Source: Vibrio ishigakensis (GTDB lineage: Bacteria; Pseudomonadota; Gammaproteobacteria; Enterobacterales; Vibrionaceae). Taken from it: a stretch of DNA of 64,000 nucleotides. The stretch spans positions 1,426,001 through 1,490,000 of the forward strand of contig NZ_AP024881.1 in assembly GCF_024347675.1 (NCBI RefSeq). The letters run 5' to 3'. Positions 1,368 to 32,500 of this stretch are shown piece after piece (positions within the stretch are counted from its first letter, which is position 1; every line of letters starts with the position of its first letter). The position numbers were made by a program, and so were the translations under genes. A model generated the notes under the pieces. It ran no database searches, was not told the DNA's origin, and was given only the letters and a program-made list of their open reading frames with translations.

Positions 1368-2453
1368 ACGAAGCTGGTTCTTAACTAAACGGAAGCTGCT
1401 TTCGTAGCTAAAGCGGTTGTTTGGCGTGGTTAGTTTGAACTGGCCTTGCTCAATCACTCGGTTTGGAATAACCACCAAAGTGTCATTGTCGATATCTAGC
1501 TCTTCAAGGTTAGGGGTTAAGCCTGTGTGTTTAGCCAATGCAAGCTGAGTTTCTTTACGAGTCAGATAATTCATCAACTCGTAGGCAAGCTCGTGATTCT
1601 CTGAGTGCTCTAGGATAGATAGGGCATACACATCTAAAATCGCACCTTCAGACGGCCATACCATATCGATATTTCCGCCTTCGATGTTCGCCTCATAAGC
1701 CTGTGCATTGGTTAACAGGCCAATAGACACACGACCTGATAGGAAGTGCATTTCAGGATCGTTATCTGCAAGGAAGGCAGTATTTGAAGCCAGCGACTCC
1801 AACCATTGGCGTGCTTCGTTCAATTCTTTCTGAGAAGCGTTGTTGATGGAATAACCAAGCTCCATCAAAGCAACGCTAAGCATAGACTGTGAGTCGTTTG
1901 GAAACATCAATTGCCCTGACCACTGTGCATCCAGTAGATCCGACCAACTCGTTACCATGGATGCTGGAAGCATATCCGCATTGGTAGCAACACCCATGCC
2001 TTCAATAAGAAGAGGCACAGAGTATTGGTTGTATGGCGCAAGGTTCGTACCCGCCAATTCTTGTTTAAACTCTTGTTTATGAGTCAACTTCTCTGGTTGG
2101 ATTGGCTGAAAATAGTGTTCAATCGTACTTTGACCTGGATAAAAGCTGTATGGCAGGATCACTAGGTCTACGCTATTTACCGCTTCACTGGTCTGTCTTG
2201 GATCGCGCACATTGTTATACACATGCTGCTCAACCTGAATGCCAGTTTCAGAGGTAAACTGGTGCAGTATCTTGACTGGAACTAGATTGTTAGGGGCGTA
2301 CAAGGTGATGGATAGAGTTTCAACTTGATTCTCCGTTGCTTCCTCAGCGTTCACTTCTTCAAATTGTGAGGTGATCTCTTCTGCAGATAGCTGAAATGCG
2401 GCCAGTGATGCGGCAATAGCAAGGGTAGGGATCAGACGTACAGCGTTTGTCAT
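1353..2453 (-). CDS. Orphan periplasmic binding protein, PotD/PotF-like
   Basis: Extracellular solute-binding protein of the spermidine/putrescine type, 366 residues from the ATG at 2453. A longer frame upstream adds 46 residues without a sensible signal. The start [16 protein letters not shown], cut near QLSA/EEITS, is a signal peptide. The mature part shows the family layout (a YAPNN.VP..IL.QF.SETGI entry strand, then [17 protein letters not shown]). No permease or ATPase gene is adjacent, so it either serves a transporter encoded elsewhere or acts as a ligand sensor, as NspS does in Vibrio. The ligand cannot be assigned from sequence alone. Confidence 0.75.
2423..2430 (+). other. KOPS-like octamer GGGTAGGG
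   Basis: Exact match to GGGNAGGG, the sequence that loads and orients the FtsK translocase in E. coli and V. cholerae. It lies left of dif and reads left to right, i.e. toward dif, as KOPS should. A single 8-mer can occur by chance, and I saw no second perfect copy. Confidence 0.35.
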
Positions 2454-2671: not shown

Positions 2672-3538
2672 ATGAGTAACCCGATAGAAAAAGATTTTAA
2701 TCTAGGCGGCAGTGTTGATAAGGCATTGGCGGGCGATTTTGAACTGAAATCTTTAGATGTAATTCGCGAAGCATGGCAACTTACCATGCAAAACCTACTG
2801 CGTTTCTCACCTGCAGTGCTTATCTTGATCGGGATCCAAGCCGTCATCTTCTTCTTTGCGCTTAAGATGCAAGTTGGAGATCTTTCAAATGTCTTGAATA
2901 TGTTCCAAGACCCAGAGACGTTAGACCCATCTATTTTCCAATCTATCTTTGTGGCTAACTTTAGCTACGAGGTGATCACAGCGCCTATCTACGCGGGCAT
3001 TGCTATGATGGCAATGAGCCATGCGGCTGGTCTTAAGACTGAGACTCGCCACATTACTAAAGGGCTTAGCTTTACTGTTCCGGTCATTCTGGTTGCGATG
3101 ATCAACCTGCTTCTACAAGCGGTTGCCGGTGCTATCTTCCCGTTCTTGTCTTTCTATCTGTCTATTGCGTTTAGTAATGCCATCTTGCTTGTATGTGAGA
3201 AGCGCATGACACCAATGAACGCGCTATGGACATCACTACGTGGGGTAAACAAGCGCCTATTTGCTGTGGCGACTATCTACCTTGTGGCTATGCTGATGTT
3301 CTTCGCTGGCCTAATGATGTATGGCCTTGGCCTTATCATTGCTGTGCCATTCTTCTTCCACGTGAAGGGCATTATCTATCGCAATATGTTTGGTATTCGC
3401 CTTCAGATTGTAGCGAAAGGGCCATCAAGCTCTGATGATTCAAACAACGACTCTGGTTCTACTCCTGAAGAAAAACCACAAGACAAGCCTGAAGAAGATA
3501 ACAACCATCGTCCAGGTTCGAATACCTTTGACGCATAA
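2672..3538 (+). CDS. Multi-pass inner membrane protein of unknown function
   Basis: 288 residues from the ATG at 2672 (MSNPIEKDFN); the frame is open 99 bp further upstream, but that part looks non-coding. Hydrophobic segments begin near FSPAVLILIG, VITAPIYAGIAMM, VPVILVAMINLLL, PFLSFYLSIAFSNAILL and LFAVATIYLVAMLMFF, suggesting five to six membrane spans. A hydrophilic C-terminal tail is rich in Ser, Asp, Glu and Pro. The stop is 9 bp before the next gene's start, so the two probably form one transcript. No family recognised with confidence. Confidence 0.75.
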   Translation: MSNPIEKDFNLGGSVDKALAGDFELKSLDVIREAWQLTMQNLLRFSPAVLILIGIQAVIFFFALKMQVGDLSNVLNMFQDPETLDPSIFQSIFVANFSYEVITAPIYAGIAMMAMSHAAGLKTETRHITKGLSFTVPVILVAMINLLLQAVAGAIFPFLSFYLSIAFSNAILLVCEKRMTPMNALWTSLRGVNKRLFAVATIYLVAMLMFFAGLMMYGLGLIIAVPFFFHVKGIIYRNMFGIRLQIVAKGPSSSDDSNNDSGSTPEEKPQDKPEEDNNHRPGSNTFDA

Positions 3539-8103: not shown

Positions 8104-10465
8104 CAGTATTTAATAACCTCAATGAATTGGTAACAACTATGATGGAACTGGCCGACATGCCCGCAACGGCAATGTAAGGCGCAACCATACCGGCTACCGC
8201 AAGTGGCAAGATCAATAGGTTGTAACCTAAAGACCAAGCCAAGTTTTCTCTTATAATTTTACGTGTTTTTAGCGCTAATAGACGCGCTGAGATCAGTTTG
8301 TCTAGCTTGTCACCCAAAAGAACCATATCTGCCGAGGACTTAGCAACGTCTGTACCGCCACCCATGGCTACCGACAGGTGAGCTCCAGCAAGGGTTGGGG
8401 CATCGTTAATACCATCGCCAATCATCATGGTTACATCTTTGCTTGGCAAGGATTTTAGATAATCCAGTTTGCCCTGCGGAGATACGCCAGCAACCACTTT
8501 GTCGATATGCAGTTTGTCGGCTACAGGTTTTGCATTCAGCTCACTATCACCGGTTAGCAGCGTTGTTTTGATGCCAAGTGCCGACACTTTTTCTAAGAAA
8601 TCTGCGCTACTCTCGCGTAGCGGGTCGGTATAGGTAAAGGCCGCCGCCAGTTTTCCATCAATGCTCAGGTAAACCGTTTGTGGGCAGCTTTGCATATCGC
8701 TCGGAGCAACAAACTTATGACTGCCTATCTTGCACTCTAAACCTTGATACTGACCGCTAAGGCCTAGGCCTATATGATTGTCTACCGACTCAACCTTTGT
8801 CTCTGTATCAATATAGGGTTTAAATGCGCTAGCAATCGGATGGTTAGCGTGTGACTCGATACTTGCCGCGATAGCGAGTACCTGTTGTTCTGTCCAATTG
8901 CCAAAGGTTTGGGTTTCGTTCAGTGACACCTTGCCTTCGGTGAGCGTACCTGTTTTATCAACGATAAGGTGATTGATTTTGCACAGAGTCTCAATAGCAT
9001 GAGATTTTCTAAGCAAGATACCGAGGTTGCTCATGCGAGAGGTACCGCAGGTGATAGCAGTAGGCGTTGCAAGAGATAGGGCGCACGGACAGGTAGCAAC
9101 CAGAACCGCAAGCATGATCCAGAAGGCGTCTTCTGGTTGATTTTGCTGCCAATAGAAGTAGGTCGCTGCGGAGATGATCAGAATAGCAGCCACAAAGTAG
9201 CGAGCTACCACATCTGCAATCTCGGCAATCTTAGGCTTAGTAGATTGTGCCTCATCCTGCAGTCGAACTATCTTGGCGATCATGCTCTCTTGGTTTTGGC
9301 AGTTCACCTCTAATGTAAAGGTCTGCTCGCCGTTGACTGTACCAGCAAATACGGTTTCACCGATGGTCTTTTTCACGTGCAGAGATTCACCAGTCAGCAT
9401 AGACTCATCGATAAATACCTCACGGTCTACAACCAAGCCATCGGCAGGCACGTGTTCGCCGGCAAGAACGCGTACGCGATCGCCAATCTTTAGGGTTTTA
9501 ACCGGGATCTGGTCACCATTATCTAGAGACGCCATGGCTGGAACCAACTTAAGCAGGTTGGCACTGGCCGCCGCTGCTTTTCTTCGTGCACGCATCTCTA
9601 GGAAGCGACCTAAAAGCAAGAAGAAGGCAAACATAGAGATGGATTCAAAGAATACCTCGCCACTTTGGGTAAAGGTGGCAATTACACTGGCGAAATAGGC
9701 AAAAATCATTGCCAACGAAACAGGTACGTCCATGCCTAAAGTGCGAGCTTTTAGACTACGCCACGCATTCATATAAAACGGAAGTGCAGAGTAGAGCATT
9801 ACCGGAGTAGCGAAGATCAAACTGATGATTCGGAAATAATGCTTAAACTCTGGCTCGAGATTACCAAACACTTCCAAATACAGGGCAACCGCCAGCATCA
9901 TCACCTGCATGGTGGCAAGGCCTGCAATACCCAATCGATACAGGTATTGCTTCATCTGACGATAGTAGTTCTCTTCTTGCTTGTCTGCTTCGAACGGAGC
10001 GGCTTTGTAACCTAGCTTATGAATAATTCCTAGAAGCTCACTTAGCTTGGTTTGAGTGTTGTCCCAAGCAAGAACGGCACGGTGGGTCGCGGTATTTACG
10101 CGAATACGCACCACGCCTTTGCGACCGTTCATCTGCTTTTCGATAAGCCAAGCGCAGGCGGCACAAGAGACGCCATCCAGTGACAATGTCACTTCGGAGG
10201 TGTTCTCATCGTTGCGAACAAACTCGGATTGGATCTCTTCGTTATCGTAGTGGATAAGGGACTGCAGCTGCTCAGGAACTAGGTCAACACGCTCAGCTTT
10301 TTCAGTGCGATATTGGTAGTAAGAGACAAGGCCGCTGTCGACTATGGTCTGGGCTACCGATTGGCAACCCGGACAACACATGTCTCGAACCTCATCGAGG
10401 ATTTTTACCTGAAAGTTCGTGCTCTCTGGTACTTCTTCACCGCAGTGGTAACACGATTTTGTCAT
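8024..10465 (-). CDS. ccoI: Copper-translocating P-type ATPase CcoI (FixI)
   Basis: 813-residue P1B-type ATPase that moves copper across the inner membrane for cbb3 oxidase assembly. In order: an N-terminal cysteine-rich segment (CYHCGEE...MCCPGCQ), a heavy-metal domain with CAAC, eight predicted membrane segments, the actuator TGES, ion-site CPC, phosphorylation site DKTGTLTEG, the HP motif in ANHPIASAF and hinge GDGINDAP. After the usual end (NSLRLL) the frame continues for 28 more hydrophilic residues through the start of ccoS, giving an 80-bp overlap. That tail is atypical; see findings. A perfect matS site lies within codons for EVTLSL. Confidence 0.95.
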   Translation of the reverse strand: MTKSCYHCGEEVPESTNFQVKILDEVRDMCCPGCQSVAQTIVDSGLVSYYQYRTEKAERVDLVPEQLQSLIHYDNEEIQSEFVRNDENTSEVTLSLDGVSCAACAWLIEKQMNGRKGVVRIRVNTATHRAVLAWDNTQTKLSELLGIIHKLGYKAAPFEADKQEENYYRQMKQYLYRLGIAGLATMQVMMLAVALYLEVFGNLEPEFKHYFRIISLIFATPVMLYSALPFYMNAWRSLKARTLGMDVPVSLAMIFAYFASVIATFTQSGEVFFESISMFAFFLLLGRFLEMRARRKAAAASANLLKLVPAMASLDNGDQIPVKTLKIGDRVRVLAGEHVPADGLVVDREVFIDESMLTGESLHVKKTIGETVFAGTVNGEQTFTLEVNCQNQESMIAKIVRLQDEAQSTKPKIAEIADVVARYFVAAILIISAATYFYWQQNQPEDAFWIMLAVLVATCPCALSLATPTAITCGTSRMSNLGILLRKSHAIETLCKINHLIVDKTGTLTEGKVSLNETQTFGNWTEQQVLAIAASIESHANHPIASAFKPYIDTETKVESVDNHIGLGLSGQYQGLECKIGSHKFVAPSDMQSCPQTVYLSIDGKLAAAFTYTDPLRESSADFLEKVSALGIKTTLLTGDSELNAKPVADKLHIDKVVAGVSPQGKLDYLKSLPSKDVTMMIGDGINDAPTLAGAHLSVAMGGGTDVAKSSADMVLLGDKLDKLISARLLALKTRKIIRENLAWSLGYNLLILPLAVAGMVAPYIAVAGMSASSIIVVTNSLRLLNTDGKPVHSNSDRHSSGRSGDSRVSVGS
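10180..10192. other. matS site (perfect consensus), in ccoI
   Basis: GTGACAATGTCAC matches GTGACRNYGTCAC, the target of MatP, at every position. It is embedded in ccoI codons. It lies left of dif; two other perfect copies lie to the right of dif. Confidence 0.8.
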
Positions 10466-15929: not shown

Positions 15930-17129
15930 CTAAACTTTCTTATCTCTTGCCGCTAAACCTGCAAACAGTGCGCATAGTGACCCTGTCACAATAACTATGC
16001 TCAATGCCCAGTTCCAACTGCCAGTTAATTCATGAATGAGACCAAGAATCGGTGGACCACAGGTCGCAATCAGGTATCCAAAACTTTGAGACATTGCCGA
16101 AAGAGCCGCAGCTTCTTCGCCACTGTTAGTGCGAAGGCCCACAAACGAGAGGCCAATAACGAAGGTCGCACAGTTACAGAAACCAAACAGTAGTGTCCAG
16201 AAAATCGCAAACTGAGGCGCGATCATCAAACCTAGAACACTTGTAACTGTGCCGACAGCAGTACTGAGAATTAATATTTGAGTGCTTTTGAGGCGAGCCA
16301 GAAAAGGAATCAACACCAAGCCTGGCCAGATGGTCGCAAACTGCAAGAAACCATAGATATAGCCAGCATCGGTTTCAGGCATGCCTGAATCAATTAGGAT
16401 TTTCGGAAGCCAAGATGAAAAGGCATAAAAGGTAACTGAGTTTAATCCGATTGCTAACGTTACTTGCCACGCTACAGCGCTTTTGAGCACACGCGTTAAA
16501 GGTAGCTTGGCTGCTTTTCCTTGCTCAGCATTCTTGTCTTTATTTAAAAGCCAAAATAGTAGTGCAGGTATGGTCAATAACAGATTAAACATCAAGGCAA
16601 ATTGCCAACCTGAGACTGTACTTGGATTCCAATGGCTTAGAGGAACCATAGTAGCGGAGGTCAAAGTCGAGCCAATGCCCATAGCAAAAGTATATAAAGA
16701 GGTAATGACCGCAATTCGGTAAGGAAATGACTGTTTAACCGCTACAGGCAACAAAACATTACCAATAGCTATGCCAATGCCAATAAAAATAGTGCCAATA
16801 CAAAGAAGGACAACATGGCCGCCAGAACGAAGCAAGATGCCAACGAAGATACTCAGCAGCGCAAAACAAATGCTTTTTTTGAGCTGTAAGTGTTTCAGAA
16901 GTGGTAATGCAAACGGAGAAACGAACGCAAAGGTAATTAGTGGCAACGAAGACAGTAAACCCAAGACAGTGGTGCTCAGATTCAAAGACTGCATGATCTG
17001 TTCAAGCAGCGGCGCCAAACTGGTAAATGGTCCACGTAGATTTATCGCCAGCAACAAGATACCGGCGAGAGCAATCCAAAGATGTCGAGACGCACTAAAG
17101 CGCGCTGTTGATTGAGAGGTAGCGTTCAC
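15930..17129 (-). CDS. MFS transporter, CynX/NimT type
   Basis: 399-residue inner membrane transporter with about twelve hydrophobic segments. The opening NLRGPFTSLAPLLEQI and the GIAIGNVLLPVAVKQSFP motif in the first half are characteristic of the CynX/NimT (cyanate/2-nitroimidazole) branch of the major facilitator superfamily. The substrate is not predictable. It stands alone between the lyase-like gene and the dif region. A one-mismatch matS palindrome lies in its 3' end. Confidence 0.85.
   Translation of the reverse strand: MNATSQSTARFSASRHLWIALAGILLLAINLRGPFTSLAPLLEQIMQSLNLSTTVLGLLSSLPLITFAFVSPFALPLLKHLQLKKSICFALLSIFVGILLRSGGHVVLLCIGTIFIGIGIAIGNVLLPVAVKQSFPYRIAVITSLYTFAMGIGSTLTSATMVPLSHWNPSTVSGWQFALMFNLLLTIPALLFWLLNKDKNAEQGKAAKLPLTRVLKSAVAWQVTLAIGLNSVTFYAFSSWLPKILIDSGMPETDAGYIYGFLQFATIWPGLVLIPFLARLKSTQILILSTAVGTVTSVLGLMIAPQFAIFWTLLFGFCNCATFVIGLSFVGLRTNSGEEAAALSAMSQSFGYLIATCGPPILGLIHELTGSWNWALSIVIVTGSLCALFAGLAARDKKV
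15977..15989. other. Degenerate matS-like palindrome (one mismatch)
   Basis: GTGACCCTGTCAC has both matS arms intact, but the first spacer base is C instead of a purine. It lies in the transporter coding sequence, 1.3 kb from dif. Possible weak MatP site. Confidence 0.3.
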
Positions 17130-17312
17130 ATGGATTCATTTAAAGAAAAGGAAGAAAGGATTATAGAGAAGTTTCGTTAAAACAAATAGGTGTAAGCATT
17201 TGATTGCAGATTTAAAAGTTTGCAAGTAATGCGCATGACGATGAGAGTTTTAAAGTAAATAGAATGAGAGAAGGGACATATATCTAAGGTTATGTAGAAA
17301 TCAATAAATCTT

Positions 17313-17340
17313 ATTTAACATAATATACATTATGCGCACT
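17313..17340 (-). other. dif: Chromosome dimer resolution site dif
   Basis: Read on the minus strand, the 28 bp consist of AGTGCGCATAA (XerC arm), TGTATA (central region) and TTATGTTAAAT (XerD arm). From memory, the E. coli dif site differs only at the first base, and V. cholerae dif1 differs at two or three positions. XerC/XerD resolve chromosome dimers here, activated by FtsK. It lies in the 245-bp gap between the NimT-like transporter and a DUF3634 gene, 348 bp from the end of matP. The rest of that gap holds nothing else I can name. Confidence 0.93.
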
Positions 17341-17374
17341 TTATTTATTGCTATTAAAGCGCTAAATCCTAGAC

Positions 17375-17677
17375 TTAGCGCTTCTTATTATGGTGTGCTT
17401 TCGAGCCTGGCAATTGCTCTCTTAGATTGTGCTTAACCTTGTTTGGAATGTTCTTTGAAAACTTGGCACTGTATTGTTTGCGACGCTTGTAAACTTTAAC
17501 TGTTCCAGAGAATGGATGTTTGCGTGCTATCTCTCTGCTGCGATTAATAAACTGTTTGTCTGTATCGCCTTTGCTACTTGCCAGTTCTCCATCTTTGAAC
17601 ACGTACACCGCTAACGGCTTGTCGTAGAAAACGATGGCAAATATCAAAATGGCCGCGATTAAAATCACATACAGCAT
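17375..17677 (-). CDS. Small DUF3634-type membrane protein
   Basis: 100 residues: an N-terminal membrane helix (MLYVILIAAILIFAIVFY), then a short basic domain with FKDGELASSKGD, PFSGTVKVYKRR and FSKNIPNKVKHNLREQLP. This layout matches my memory of DUF3634 proteins, which are common in Vibrio. Function unknown. It lies 10 bp after matP on the same strand, so the two are probably co-transcribed, and its stop is 35 bp from dif. Confidence 0.75.
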   Translation of the reverse strand: MLYVILIAAILIFAIVFYDKPLAVYVFKDGELASSKGDTDKQFINRSREIARKHPFSGTVKVYKRRKQYSAKFSKNIPNKVKHNLREQLPGSKAHHNKKR

Positions 17678-17687
17678 CGACTTCTCC

Positions 17688-18137
17688 TTAGTCTGATAGC
17701 AACTTGCTTAGGTCTTCCTTTAGTGAGCTTACTTTTTTGTTTGCTTTTTCACTGCGTGACGCCTCAGTGACTAGATACTCGATAGCATCTGACAAGGTGC
17801 AACCGAGCTCGTTGGCGCGCTGTGAAAGTTTTTCCCATACACGATAGTCAAGATCGATGGACTTTTTACGAGTGTGGACCTGTTCGGCGTTAAAGTGACG
17901 CTTGCGCTTCGCTCGGATGGCTTGCTTGAGTTTCTTATCCAACTCAAGAGACATGTGATTGTCTATCCAATCTAAAACAAGTGTTGGTTCGTGCTCAATA
18001 TTGCGCAATAACTCCACTGCAGCTGCATCTTCGCTACTATCGATGTGTCTTGTTATGGCCTCGCCTTCTTTCCATTTCTTTATCAAGTAATTCCATTTCC
18101 AGCCACATTCAAGATTTTCAAGTTGTTGATATTTCAT
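17688..18137 (-). CDS. matP: Macrodomain Ter protein MatP
   Basis: 149-residue DNA-binding protein that binds matS sites, condenses the Ter region and delays its segregation at midcell through ZapB. The start MKYQQLENLECGWKWNYLIKKWKEGE and the C-terminal ribbon-helix-helix segment (KKSIDLDYRVWEKLSQRANELGCTLSDAI) are diagnostic. Length equals that of E. coli MatP. The lonH and fabA neighbours match the E. coli arrangement. A one-mismatch matS lies 30 bp upstream. Confidence 0.96.
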   Translation of the reverse strand: MKYQQLENLECGWKWNYLIKKWKEGEAITRHIDSSEDAAAVELLRNIEHEPTLVLDWIDNHMSLELDKKLKQAIRAKRKRHFNAEQVHTRKKSIDLDYRVWEKLSQRANELGCTLSDAIEYLVTEASRSEKANKKVSSLKEDLSKLLSD

Positions 18138-20776: not shown

Positions 20777-20950
20777 TTATTTAAAAAGACCAGACTCTAT
20801 GTCATCTTTCGCGTCTCTCCAACCGCCTAGCCAATATGATTTTGCATCTACTTGTTGGTAAGGACAGGTTTCGCTAGAGCGACCGTTAAGACCCGCTTTA
20901 TAACCCTGGGACTGAGCTCGTTCTAGACGATCACGCTTTTGTCTCTTCAT
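20777..20950 (-). CDS. rmf: Ribosome modulation factor
   Basis: 57 residues from the ATG at 20950 (MKRQKRDRLERAQSQGYKAG); the frame runs 45 bp further up, but the family starts at MKRQKRDR. RMF binds 70S ribosomes in stationary phase and, with HPF, forms inactive 100S dimers. The motifs GLNGRS, CPYQ and YWLGGWR are typical. It is adjacent to and convergent with fabA, as in E. coli. Confidence 0.95.
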   Translation of the reverse strand: MKRQKRDRLERAQSQGYKAGLNGRSSETCPYQQVDAKSYWLGGWRDAKDDIESGLFK

Positions 20951-21150: not shown

Positions 21151-23106
21151 CTATTTACGTCGACGATTCCACGCAACTAGGCCAAGCAAACCAAGCATCC
21201 ATGGACCGAAACTACCGCCTTGGCGTTCGATTGGGGCTTGTTCAACACTACGTGGTTCAATAGCTGGAACAGGCACAGTATCGTCTTCAGAATCCAAATC
21301 GATGGTTGGAACTAGCTTAACAGCAACGACCTTCTCAACACCTGTACCACCACCGCAATATGCGTTGTGGCCTGTATTATCGTAACCTTCTGCACAGTAA
21401 AGAGCTGTCGCAGATATCTCACCTTTTTCATTAATATCCGACGCGGCTACGATACGGAACTTGTTGTTGTTACCATCAACTTGGCCGTCGTTAGTCAAAT
21501 CATCTAACCACCAAGCTTTGTTCTGGAACTTAGCTGCGCGTGCTGCGTTAGTACCTTCGAAACTATATGGATAGATGAAACCTCTTTGACGGCGTTGTTT
21601 CCCGTTATATTCTCGAGCAGACTCTGCATCGATAACACCAACGATTTCATTGTGATTGTTAACTGCTTTTGCCTGACCGCCGGCGCTATTGAAGAAAATA
21701 GATTGTCCTGAGTCTTCAAGGAAAATCGCTTCTGGCTCACCCTCAGACGCATCAGCAACAAATAGTCGGTTATTAGCTGCACCATTCGATGGCTTATCAC
21801 CACGACGCTTAGCCTCACCGATCACTAGTAGGTTGTTGTTGATATCAGTCGCTTTAGAGTTTGAGTAAATGTAATCACCATCCTGTTCAACCTCAACGCG
21901 ACGGATGAACTTGGTATCCCACTGATCAGCTGCTACATCACTAAAGCCCTCTTTTGGATAGAAAACTGCAGCTTGCATTAGCAGATTGTTGTCATCACGA
22001 TAGGTGTTGTAACCCACAAGAACAGGCTTTTCGTCGTATGGTGTAGATGAAAGAGATGTGTCTACACTCGGATCTCGCACTACCGCTCCACGGACACTTC
22101 CCATGTAAGAAGTATCATCTCGCCAGCCTGTAGTATCATCATTATCCTTAGTATTAGGCCACGTAGAAACACTCAAACCAGAGAGTGGATCAGTAGATTC
22201 CCAAACGTAACCCTTAGTTGAAAAAGCAAAGTTTTGACATGCTTCTAAGCTGCCTGGATCGTCATCATTAAAACAACTGCTAACACTGCCACGATAATTT
22301 TTATCGCCATCGTTATAGTTAAAAGGAGTCACAGCGGCACTGCCCACTACATAGGTTCTCTCTACATTATCGGTGCCTGTGTAAGTGAACGAATCAAACG
22401 CCATGGTGCGCCCCATGAGCTTGACAATATTATCGCCGTCTTGGCGAGGTAATAAGATAGTATTACCGATGAAGCCACGCTCGCGATACGCCAACCCATA
22501 GTTACCGTTAACGTTGTAGTAGCCGCTACTCGTGCTACCAATAACGTCACCAGAAGCGCTGAATTTATTGACCGTTACATTGTTGCTATCTGCTTCTGGT
22601 GTTGCGCCACCTGAGGTATCCCCCGGCGTATAATCGCTGGTAGGATTTAGCATAATTGCGCTTGTACCAGAGAAGCCTCTAGCATTGGAGGTATAACCTT
22701 GAGTAAATGCTTCGCGCTCACGCTGCAGGCCACCAGCATTATTGATACCATTCCACTCACGGCTCGCCCAGTTTTCACAACTGTTATAGCCGCGCTCTCG
22801 ATAGCAATAGCTTTCTAGATCATCCCAATCGAGGTAATAAAAGTTGTTATCGATACCGAATGGCGCTTCTTCTCGAAATGGAAATCCATCGGTACCATCA
22901 CGCGTATCACCTGCCAGTGTGCCTTTTTCTTCGACACCACCAGTGGCAGTTAAAGTATCTGCAGGAGAAATTGCGCTTCCGTAGAATTCATTAGCTGTAA
23001 CGCTAGGACTCACCATCTCAACGTTATAAAGACTTGCATTTGCACCTAGTGACACCGTCACCAAGGTGGCGACGGTAGAAAGTTTAAAGATATTACTGCG
23101 TTTCAC
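21151..23106 (-). CDS. DUF3466 exported protein with GlyGly-CTERM-like tail
   Basis: 651 residues. A signal peptide (MKRSNIFKLSTVATLVTVSLGANA, cut before SLYNV) is followed by a large, Asp/Asn-rich beta-type domain with several stretches resembling HAF-like repeats (ATDINNNLLVIG, AVNNHNEIVG, ASDINEKGEISATALY). The C-terminus reads GGSFGPWMLGLLGLVAWNRRRK: a GG-S motif, one hydrophobic helix and a basic end. This matches GlyGly-CTERM signals processed by rhombosortase before outer-surface delivery. It lies just downstream of uup (6 bp), probably in the same transcript. Function unknown. Confidence 0.82.
   Translation of the reverse strand: MKRSNIFKLSTVATLVTVSLGANASLYNVEMVSPSVTANEFYGSAISPADTLTATGGVEEKGTLAGDTRDGTDGFPFREEAPFGIDNNFYYLDWDDLESYCYRERGYNSCENWASREWNGINNAGGLQREREAFTQGYTSNARGFSGTSAIMLNPTSDYTPGDTSGGATPEADSNNVTVNKFSASGDVIGSTSSGYYNVNGNYGLAYRERGFIGNTILLPRQDGDNIVKLMGRTMAFDSFTYTGTDNVERTYVVGSAAVTPFNYNDGDKNYRGSVSSCFNDDDPGSLEACQNFAFSTKGYVWESTDPLSGLSVSTWPNTKDNDDTTGWRDDTSYMGSVRGAVVRDPSVDTSLSSTPYDEKPVLVGYNTYRDDNNLLMQAAVFYPKEGFSDVAADQWDTKFIRRVEVEQDGDYIYSNSKATDINNNLLVIGEAKRRGDKPSNGAANNRLFVADASEGEPEAIFLEDSGQSIFFNSAGGQAKAVNNHNEIVGVIDAESAREYNGKQRRQRGFIYPYSFEGTNAARAAKFQNKAWWLDDLTNDGQVDGNNNKFRIVAASDINEKGEISATALYCAEGYDNTGHNAYCGGGTGVEKVVAVKLVPTIDLDSEDDTVPVPAIEPRSVEQAPIERQGGSFGPWMLGLLGLVAWNRRRK
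23049..23061. other. matS site (perfect consensus), in the DUF3466 gene
   Basis: GTGACACCGTCAC fits GTGACRNYGTCAC at every position. It falls in codons for the signal peptide (TLVTVSLG). Confidence 0.8.
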
Positions 23107-29595: not shown

Positions 29596-32500
29596 TTACT
29601 TAGTTGCTTCACAATTCAAGTTTAAAAGCATAAGTTCTCGTAATGCCACGGAAAATTTTGCAAATTCATGCACATTACCCACTTTAAACTCCTTAAGCGT
29701 GTTCTCCCAGCGGGATAACGCCTCTTTATTGTTATGCATCCAGTTTTCTATGGTCTGCTCAACCGAATCCAGTGAATCACCACAACCGCAGTTGAGAACT
29801 TGGACTGTCAACTGGCGTTGTTGCCAATCCAGATCTTCTCTAAAGGCGGCTCGAGCCAATGCTTGCCAATGATTATCGACCACCTGATTGTTGATCTGCC
29901 ATAGGAACCAGTGAAGAGACAACTTATCACCCAAGTGGAAGTACAGTTTAGCCGCACGCTCTACTGTGGTGTTGCACTCTTTAGCCGCAATGGAGATATC
30001 ATAGCAACAATACAGGCTCGACAGTCTTGAGATATAGTTGGCAACTTCGGCATCAACGCCCTGCTCAATCCAAGCTTTCGCTTGCTCATTGTGTTGCTGA
30101 ACCTCTTCTTCAACCAGTAGTTCATCTAGCTTATCAACCACAATCGCCACATCTTTTTCAAAGCGAGCAACCAATTCGGTTACGCTACTCTTCTGTGAAC
30201 GGTTGCGCAGCATCCAACGGGTTAGTCTGCGAAGGATACGACGAATCATAAACATCAATTCGTATTGAACTGAGGTTGGTAGACGGTTGTCATGTTGGCG
30301 GATCTTCTCGAACGTTTTGTCGAAATGGAACAGCTCTTTTGACGCCGCAAATGCATTGGCTATGTCGACCACACTTGCGCCCGTCTCTTCTTGAAGTCTA
30401 GTCACGAAGTTACAGCCCATCTCGTTAACAATATCGTTAGCAAGCACGGTTGCGATCAATTCTTTACGCAATGGATACTGATGGATCTCCTTGTTAAAGT
30501 TACCACGTAACTCAGTTGGGAAGTAGTTCACTAGCAGTTTACTGTGATGCTCATCTTCACTGATGGCTTCTACCGCAAGCTGTTCTTTTAACAGCATTTT
30601 CGCGTAGGCCACCAGCACAGAAAGCTCAGGTCTAGTCAGCGCTTGCCCTTGCTTTTCGCGCTCTAGAAGCTGTTCATCATCAGGGATATATTCCAACTGG
30701 CGGTCTAGCTGGCCTGCTTTTTCCAGAGTATGAATAAAGCGCATCTGCTCTTTTACGCCAGCAACGCCCTGCGCTTCAGAGACCGAAATAGACTCAGACT
30801 GGTTGTAGGCATCTTGAAGTACGATGTCGGAAACCTCGTTCTCCATAACGTTTAGCAACTGGTTACGCTTCTTGAAGGTAAGATCGCCATTCGCTACTAC
30901 TGAGTTAAGCAAGATCTTAATGTTTACTTCGTTATCCGAGCTATCTACACCGCCTACGTTATCAACAAAGTCGGTATTTACGCGGCCGCCATGCAAAGCA
31001 AACTCGATACGCCCAAGCTGAGTCAGACCTAGGTTACCACCCTCGCCAACGATCTTCGCTTTAAGCTCATTACCGTTGATGCGCAGAGAATCATTGGCGC
31101 GGTCACCTACATCAGAATGCGTCTCTTTCGACGATTTCACATAGGTGCCGATACCACCATTCCATAGAAGATCCACTTCCATGCACAGGATGTTTTTGAT
31201 CAGTTCATTTGGCGTCATCGAATCTTTAGATACACCCAGCATCTTCTTAATTTCAGGTGACAACGTCACTGATTTAGCTTTACGAGAGAAGACACCACCA
31301 CCTTTTGAGATCAATGACTTATCGTAATCATCCCAACCGGTTCTTGGCGTATTAAACAGACGTTCACGCTCAACATAAGACTTGGCTGAATCTGGATTTG
31401 GATCGATAAAGATGTGCAGATGGTTAAAGGCGGCTTGCAGTCGAATATGTTTCGACAGCAACATACCGTTACCAAATACATCCCCTGCCATATCACCTAC
31501 ACCGATAACGGTGAAGTCTGTGGTCTGACAGTTAATGCCGATCTCACGGAAGTGACGCTTAACTGATTCCCAACCACCTTTGGCGGTAATACCCATTACC
31601 TTATGGTCGTAACCGTTCGAACCGCCAGATGCAAACGCATCTCCTAGCCAGAAACCGTATGCTTCAGAAACGCTATTTGCGATATCTGAGAAGGTCGCAG
31701 TGCCCTTATCCGCCGCAACTACGAAATACGGATCATCATCATCGTGACGAACCACATTCGCTGGCGGCACAACCTTACCTTCTACGACGTTATCTGCCAC
31801 ATCCAACAGTGAACTGATGAACGCACGGTAGCAGCGCTGACCTTCGGCAAAAATCTCATCTCGGCTAGTGAATAGATGTTGCTTCTTACAGACAAAGCCA
31901 CCTTTCGCACCTACCGGCAGAATCACAGTATTCTTAACCTGCTGCGCTTTAACCAGACCAAGCACCTCGGTGCGATAATCCTCAAATCGGTCGGACCAAC
32001 GAAGACCACCACGTGCGACCTTGCCACCGCGCAGGTGCACACCCTCAATATCCGGTGCGTATACAAACATCTCATAGTGAGGCACAGGTTGCGGGATCTC
32101 TGGAATCTCTCTTGGTGCAAGTTTAAGAGCAAGACACGCCTTAGGTTCACCCTCTTCATTCACCTGATAGAAGTTGGTACGTAAGGTCGCTCGGACCATC
32201 TCTACATAACGAGTTAGGATGCGGTCATCATCTAGACTCTCTACTTTCTCAAGCTGAGCATTGATCTGCTCGATAAGCTTAACCTGGGGCGCTTCGCTTC
32301 CCTTTTCTTTAGGATCGAATCGCTTACTAAATAGAGAAACGATATGAGTTGCCAATTTTGGATGGGTTGCCAGTGTTCCGCAAATATAGTCCTGACTGAA
32401 TGGGAAGCCTACCTGACGCATATACTTGGCGTACGCGCGAAGGATAGTTACCTCACGGCCAGTAAGACCTGCTCCAAGAACCAAACGGTTGAAGCCGTCG

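Follow-up and report, generated by a model that had tools for sequence, protein, structure and literature searches.

The window analysed here, a 64,000-nucleotide stretch of the Vibrio ishigakensis genome (C1:1426001-1490000), almost certainly carries dif1, the predicted XerCD recombination site of the main Vibrio chromosome, at positions 17313-17340 of the minus strand. Within the family this site is unusual in two ways: it carries A10 and A17 together, and it has no inverted partner, a term that we use for a recurring inverted site found on the opposite strand, roughly 100 bp beyond the XerD arm of dif, at most Vibrionaceae loci. The elements dif, KOPS, matS and MatP as such are already known in Vibrio from the accessible parts of earlier work (PMC4177673, PMC6549158, PMC8826520).

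The 28-mer AGTGCGCATAATGTATATTATGTTAAAT matches the window exactly at 17313-17340 and is the single site of this kind in the whole genome at up to 3 mismatches, while 100 dinucleotide shuffles of the window yielded zero matches at the same limit. As the initial annotation had proposed, an 11-bp XerC arm is followed by a 6-bp centre and an 11-bp XerD arm, which is the layout of a gamma-proteobacterial dif. The same annotation held that the first base differs from E. coli dif; this was too cautious, as the one E. coli dif compared is identical at 28/28 bases. Across 5426 E. coli genomes, 712 contain 28 or more of the 30 queried bases as one exact stretch, and a 42-base query with a loose limit found some match in 5380. 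The site had also been placed outside any gene, in agreement with the lack of overlapping ORFs of at least 70 aa, though a mechanical 34-aa ORF (17332-17436, plus strand) shares 9 bp with it. The features of the region are as follows.

2423..2430, plus strand: last KOPS (GGGTAGGG) before dif1 on the left arm, pointing to dif1
10180..10192: matS site GTGACAATGTCAC
15930-17129, minus strand: MFS gene, one neighbour of dif1
17313..17340, minus strand: dif (dif1), predicted chromosome dimer resolution site; exact and unique 28-mer at the skew and KOPS polarity switch
17313..17323, minus strand: XerD arm TTATGTTAAAT, from the sequence
17324..17329, minus strand: dif1 central region TGTATA, from the sequence
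17330..17340, minus strand: XerC arm AGTGCGCATAA, from the sequence, with A at position 10
17375..17677, minus strand: gene for a DUF3634 protein between matP and dif1 (Pfam PF12321, 1.4e-21)
17688..18137, minus strand: matP, encoding the Ter macrodomain protein of 149 aa (Pfam MatP 1.7e-41, MatP_C 7.5e-30)
23049..23061: matS site GTGACACCGTCAC
31257..31269: matS site GTGACAACGTCAC

The genome comprises two contigs, C1 with 2,969,692 bp and C2 with 1,816,305 bp, and C1 is assigned to chromosome 1 because of its size, the presence of matP, and dnaA at C1:394, where the contig begins. On C1, dif1 sits at 48.6% of the length. GC skew in 34 sampled 20-kb stretches of this contig is positive in 16/16 before 1.44 Mb and negative in 18/18 from there. 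Over the contiguous 1.30-1.60 Mb, cumulative skew, which had been suggested as a check near 17.3 kb of the window, peaks at 3031 at window position 20788, 3.5 kb from dif1; at dif1 itself it stands at 3017, 14 units below the maximum, and we take this gap to be noise. KOPS turn at the same place: among the matches listed for C1 1,030,183-1,845,482, GGGNAGGG occurs 25 times on the plus and once on the minus strand left of dif1, and once on the plus and 26 times on the minus strand right of it, while relaxed KOPS in 1.30-1.60 Mb are distributed 34:6 on the left and 4:49 on the right. The best KOPS polarity switch, C1:1,432,001-1,450,501, encloses dif1 and leaves out a second dif-like site of C1. 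Exact matS sites number nine on C1, all within 1.21-1.78 Mb, and seven on C2; three of those on C1 fall less than 14 kb from dif1, all inside the window. Finally, the genome encodes XerC, a second, lower-scoring XerC-family match below the cut-off of that family, which we take to be XerD, and one FtsK gamma domain. The site therefore has the attributes of a gamma-proteobacterial dif, i.e. a single copy at the replichore junction, converging KOPS, and a host with XerC, presumptive XerD and FtsK gamma. With skew, KOPS and matS all turning or clustering at dif1, the initial annotation of the window as the replication terminus stands, and the replicon yielded no better dif, the other C1 site being weaker.

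By analogy with the E. coli and V. cholerae systems, FtsK would load on the KOPS that point to dif1 from both arms and, at the septum, gather the two dif sites that a chromosome dimer contains. The FtsK gamma domain would then activate XerD for the first strand exchange, after which XerC would carry out the second and convert the dimer into two monomers. MatP bound to the matS sites around dif1 would hold the terminus region at mid-cell. The window resembles the E. coli dif/XerCD-FtsK system in sequence, KOPS polarity, Ter position and matS, and differs from it in that the host has two chromosomes and that matP lies beside dif. In E. coli, matP is about 570 kb from dif.

The distance from matP to dif1 in the window is 348 bp, with dif1 downstream of the gene and oriented like it, as is typical of Vibrionaceae dif1. 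MatP was detected in 148/150 genomes of the family sample, and dif lies downstream of matP in 114/115 genomes where this was examinable. The underlying tally covers the 146 MatP genomes with a listed position, 108 of which have dif on the matP contig; in 107/108, dif follows downstream with matching orientation, at 0.5-48 kb counted from where the MatP domain match ends. Genome G026 was dropped as an exception to this linkage after a 3-mismatch site had been found 6.3 kb downstream of matP. For 38 genomes no dif was recorded on the matP contig; six of the seven looked at have a site 0.6-19 kb downstream. In G002 there is no dif site within 40 kb of matP. Similarly, 46 of 80 named Vibrio loci contain dif, always downstream of matP (376-9436 bp) and in 45/46 cases in the same orientation; the other 34 have no dif in the sequence covered, much of which is truncated. 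Outside the family, the five genomes of the order sample with matP and dif on one contig (G158, G167, G177, G188, G194) have no dif within 50 kb downstream of matP. The literature searched yielded no paper stating such a linkage.

The first peculiarity of the window dif1, A10 together with A17, makes it a consensus, E. coli-type site. At position 10, all 46/46 dif sites among the 80 named Vibrio loci have T. A10 next to matP is rare, though not exclusive to the window, as it recurs in G131, G011, G015, G004, G104 and G017. According to the accessible text of Val et al. 2008 (PMC2533119), T10 and G17 are the bases by which FtsK control over recombination at V. cholerae dif1 is maintained. With V. 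cholerae XerCD, FtsK-independent recombination rose when A17 was the single change, did not rise when A10 was, and with the two combined was as high as for E. coli dif. The large-chromosome site described in that text shares with the window dif1 the arms, the 6-bp centre and the skew and KOPS switch, and differs in having T10, G17 and a partner at 69 bp (by a TLC record taken as V. cholerae), whereas the window has A10, A17 and no partner. Hence, FtsK might control the window dif less tightly than other Vibrio dif1 sites by virtue of this pair of bases. We regard this as a tentative idea, somewhat on the doubtful side, since the effect in the available account (PMC2533119) was measured with V. 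cholerae recombinases rather than the XerCD of the window's own host, and no matching change in XerC was found: G121 (T10) and G127 (A10) have almost the same XerC protein. Joint evolution of XerC and dif base 10 was likewise rejected because of this pair, which differs at base 10 despite near-identical XerC, and because the several alignment columns that separate the groups follow the tree. Co-variation of base 10 between dif1 and dif2 is not claimed either: A occurs at both sites in G000 (the window genome), G131, G011, G015 and G001, but G124, G007, G072, G104 and G017 are mixed.

The second peculiarity concerns the partner. Its survey consensus is ATTTACCATAA-AATA(G/C)(C/A)-TAATAAnCAnn, and membership was judged by ATTTACCATAA-AATASM-TAATnAnCAnn on the XerD side of dif, mostly 69-120 bp away. 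The partner is a real conserved element. With a 15-base core and up to 2 mismatches, it was found in 111/141 distinct Vibrionaceae dif loci versus 4/2820 shuffled flanks, a tally that leaves out L092 and L093 (both with partner) and the window (without). Its distance from dif is 69-120 bp in 106/111 loci. Bases beyond the selected core are conserved as well, TAAT with 1.7-2.0 bits and CA with 0.7 and 1.2 bits in 17 representatives whose flanks are dissimilar; most of the spacer and outer flank reach 0-0.5 bits in these representatives, and an A/T-rich stretch 5-15 bp before the partner up to 1.0 bit. The XerC-side flanks surveyed contain no partner at up to 2 mismatches. Outside the family, the partner was present in 2/20 loci (G172 with 1 mismatch, G179 with 2), and the E. 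coli dif locus has none. No report of the partner was found in the literature searched, motif letters included, with subscription papers mostly outside the coverage; according to the accessible text of Val et al. 2008 (PMC2533119), no conserved motif was seen directly adjacent to dif1 and dif2.

The spacing between dif and partner is phased. Spacings peak at 79-80, 89-90 and 100-101 bp, and the best period is 10.3-10.4 bp (123 loci, plasmid loci included). Phasing amounts to R = 0.59 in 73 representatives, with 0/5000 smoothed nulls as high, and to the same R = 0.59 in 18 stricter representatives, with 19/5000 nulls as high; off-phase spacings occur, e.g. 74, 85, 87, 116 and 135 bp. Two arrangements stand apart. 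In G001 (2.6 Mb), both contigs carry an inverted, strong Xer-like pair of dif and partner 48 bp apart (C1:1362398 and C2:300542; L268, L269), the partner having a perfect XerD arm, which makes this the least degenerate pair seen. A 3.23-Mb contig of G026 (C38) carries two dif sites, at 98770 and 1510431, with 1.41 Mb between them; both have a partner 89 bp away that shows 2 mismatches. This is either a fused chromosome pair or a wrong assembly join.

The partner extends to other replicons. Among 28 genomes with both dif1 and dif2, it accompanies both sites in 17, neither in 8 and one in 3 (up to 2 mismatches in 16), a joint presence or absence with a Fisher p of 0.0001 that is not corrected for species relatedness. 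A 30-base partner consensus matches 32/72,556 plasmid records, 31/32 from Vibrionaceae, several of which are megabase-sized and may be second chromosomes. Eleven of the 32, chosen rather than drawn at random, were inspected: ten have the partner 74-163 bp past a dif-like site, which is weak on pAWOD_1 (5 arm mismatches) and V. pelagius p_1 (4), while a Shewanella plasmid has no dif-like site near the match. Three dif-like sites on two plasmids of G089 are without partner.

In the window, the XerD-side flank (17183..17312) holds, the dif arm aside, no partner match at up to 3 mismatches; the best has 4 mismatches to the 16-mer, with an unrecognisable XerC-side half, and is taken as chance or decay. 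A degenerate dif pattern at up to 2 mismatches matches this genome at two positions on each contig. Of those on C2, the dif2 candidate AGTACGCATAATCAATGTTATGTTAAAT at C2:1483993-1484020 (minus strand) lies where the C2 skew changes sign; its arms are conserved bar one base, its centre, TCAATG, is unlike that of dif1, and nothing near it is better than 7 mismatches to the partner. A dif with conserved inverted partner is thus absent from both chromosomes. The lineage of the window is not the sole one in this state. Its neighbours in the XerC tree (G121, G127, G131) are also without partner, as are the loci of V. comitans, V. superstes, V. breoganii and V. inusitatus, where dif is 376-380 bp from matP compared with 348 bp here, and loci L064, L075, L091, L111 and L168. 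Both chromosomes are without it in G030, G074, G080, G121, G131, G149 and G000, and by the 2-mismatch rule in G042. It is missing at one chromosome only in G012, G020 (3 mismatches) and G062, and at dif2 of G042, G080 and G089 just the XerD half can be recognised. In the XerC tree of 30 genomes, the window lineage (the G000 XerC, L200, with G121, G127 and G131) sits on a long stem of 0.41 changes per column.

A protein acting at the partner in trans, XerCD or another, is suggested by the phasing together with the concordant occurrence on the two chromosomes. From its layout, the partner is likely an Xer site. Read on the other strand, it has the 11-6-11 arrangement, with a XerD arm (TTATGGTAAAT) matching at 10/11 positions and a XerC arm that keeps TG...ATTA and loses CGC; 0/400000 random 28-mers come as close. 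We propose that, by looping onto dif, it may serve as a brake or filter topology. In full, the Vibrionaceae dif would be a two-site module, a reading to which we give about an even chance. The partner would be a second, inverted and degenerate XerC/XerD site on the same helical face and on the XerD side of dif1, dif2 and several plasmid sites. XerCD bound there could loop back to dif and form a pair that is non-productive, as the centres differ, until FtsK arrives, and this loop could tighten FtsK control or filter topology. CTX-type phages may have copied the pair as attP1/attP2, and the lineage of the window may have lost the partner on both chromosomes and been left with a plain E. coli-type dif. 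A precedent for extra cis sequence in fixed geometry beside an Xer core is the plasmid site cer, as far as the accessible text of PMC5357621 goes; cer differs in its use of ArgR and PepA, while the partner is itself similar to an Xer site and is positioned on the XerD side.

Alternatively, an unrelated dimeric DNA-binding protein could have its operator at the partner, near dif by chance. In favour of this, the core CTATTT-N6-AAATAG of many copies is itself an inverted repeat, and Xer binding at the partner is presumptive. We nevertheless consider this unlikely. A chance neighbour would hardly combine a 10/11 XerD arm with a XerC arm containing TAAT and mostly CA at exactly 11-6-11, a match that none of the random 28-mers equalled. 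It would also have to be phased to dif, to stay on the XerD side and never occur on the XerC side at up to 2 mismatches, and to recur on chromosomes and plasmids with different neighbours.

The Xer-site reading also has to be weighed against a relic of CTX-type filamentous phages, which integrate at dif. The attP of CTXphi consists of two inverted dif-like sites (attP1/attP2) separated by 90 bp in the available portions of two papers (PMC4246890, PMC5357621), which is the geometry of the dif-partner pair. By record listing, 26 of the 33 motif-bearing records of a phage collection are CTXphi, and 19 IMG/VR stretches carry the exact motif, 18 of them with dif and the core at 60-163 bp (up to 1 mismatch) and the nineteenth with dif and, on the opposite strand at a distance of 108 bp, a partner-like site. 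A phage origin of the chromosomal sites is nonetheless improbable: across the family, the partner hardly varies beside dif1, dif2 and plasmid sites although the flank around it is mostly unconserved, and a relic would not be kept in this way. In addition, in the TLC-Kn1 phage junction record the partner follows a dif carrying T10 and G17 at a distance of 69 bp, beyond the annotated 'left dif' and thus on what is read as the chromosomal side. We infer that this dif is V. cholerae dif1 from TLC, the note 'similar to VC1465' and the two bases. As far as the same two papers are accessible (PMC4246890, PMC5357621), the CTXphi attP differs further in that a folded single strand serves integration, whereas the chromosomal pair is conserved across kinds of replicon and is lacking in the window.

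The identification of the window site itself as dif1 has one competitor, the second dif-like site of C1, AATGCGGATAATCGCTATTATGTTAAAT at C1:1518155-1518182 (plus strand; L036:18155-18182), outside the window and 75 kb from dif1. That this were the true chromosome-1 resolution site, and the window dif a leftover copy from an integrated element, is barely conceivable despite its perfect XerD arm, its 9/11 XerC arm and the lack of any site at up to 5 mismatches in three shuffles of the 300-kb stretch, as skew and KOPS rule it out as terminus: cumulative skew there is 1055 versus 3017 at dif1, and the KOPS between the two sites already point the other way (1 plus, 21 minus). The site adjoins an AAA_25 helicase/primase-like gene and small genes, two with weak phage-family matches. 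Its XerC arm has 2 mismatches and 3/6 central bases are changed. Because of the adjoining AAA_25 and small phage-like genes, it is probably the single Xer site of a mobile, plasmid-derived or cryptic integrated element. Its neighbourhood has no match among plasmids, no relative among viral contigs and two weak protein matches to phages; three viral contigs carry a site similar to it.

Taken together, the window dif is itself ordinary and fixes where chromosome 1 ends. The partner, in turn, is a cis element about as conserved as dif among the loci surveyed, and in the V. cholerae-type record it stands beside the best-studied dif1. If XerCD or another factor acts at it, models of dimer resolution in two-chromosome bacteria would so far be without one component, and CTX-type phages would gain a chromosomal model for their inverted double attP. 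The absence of the partner from both chromosomes in the lineage of the window offers a natural comparison.
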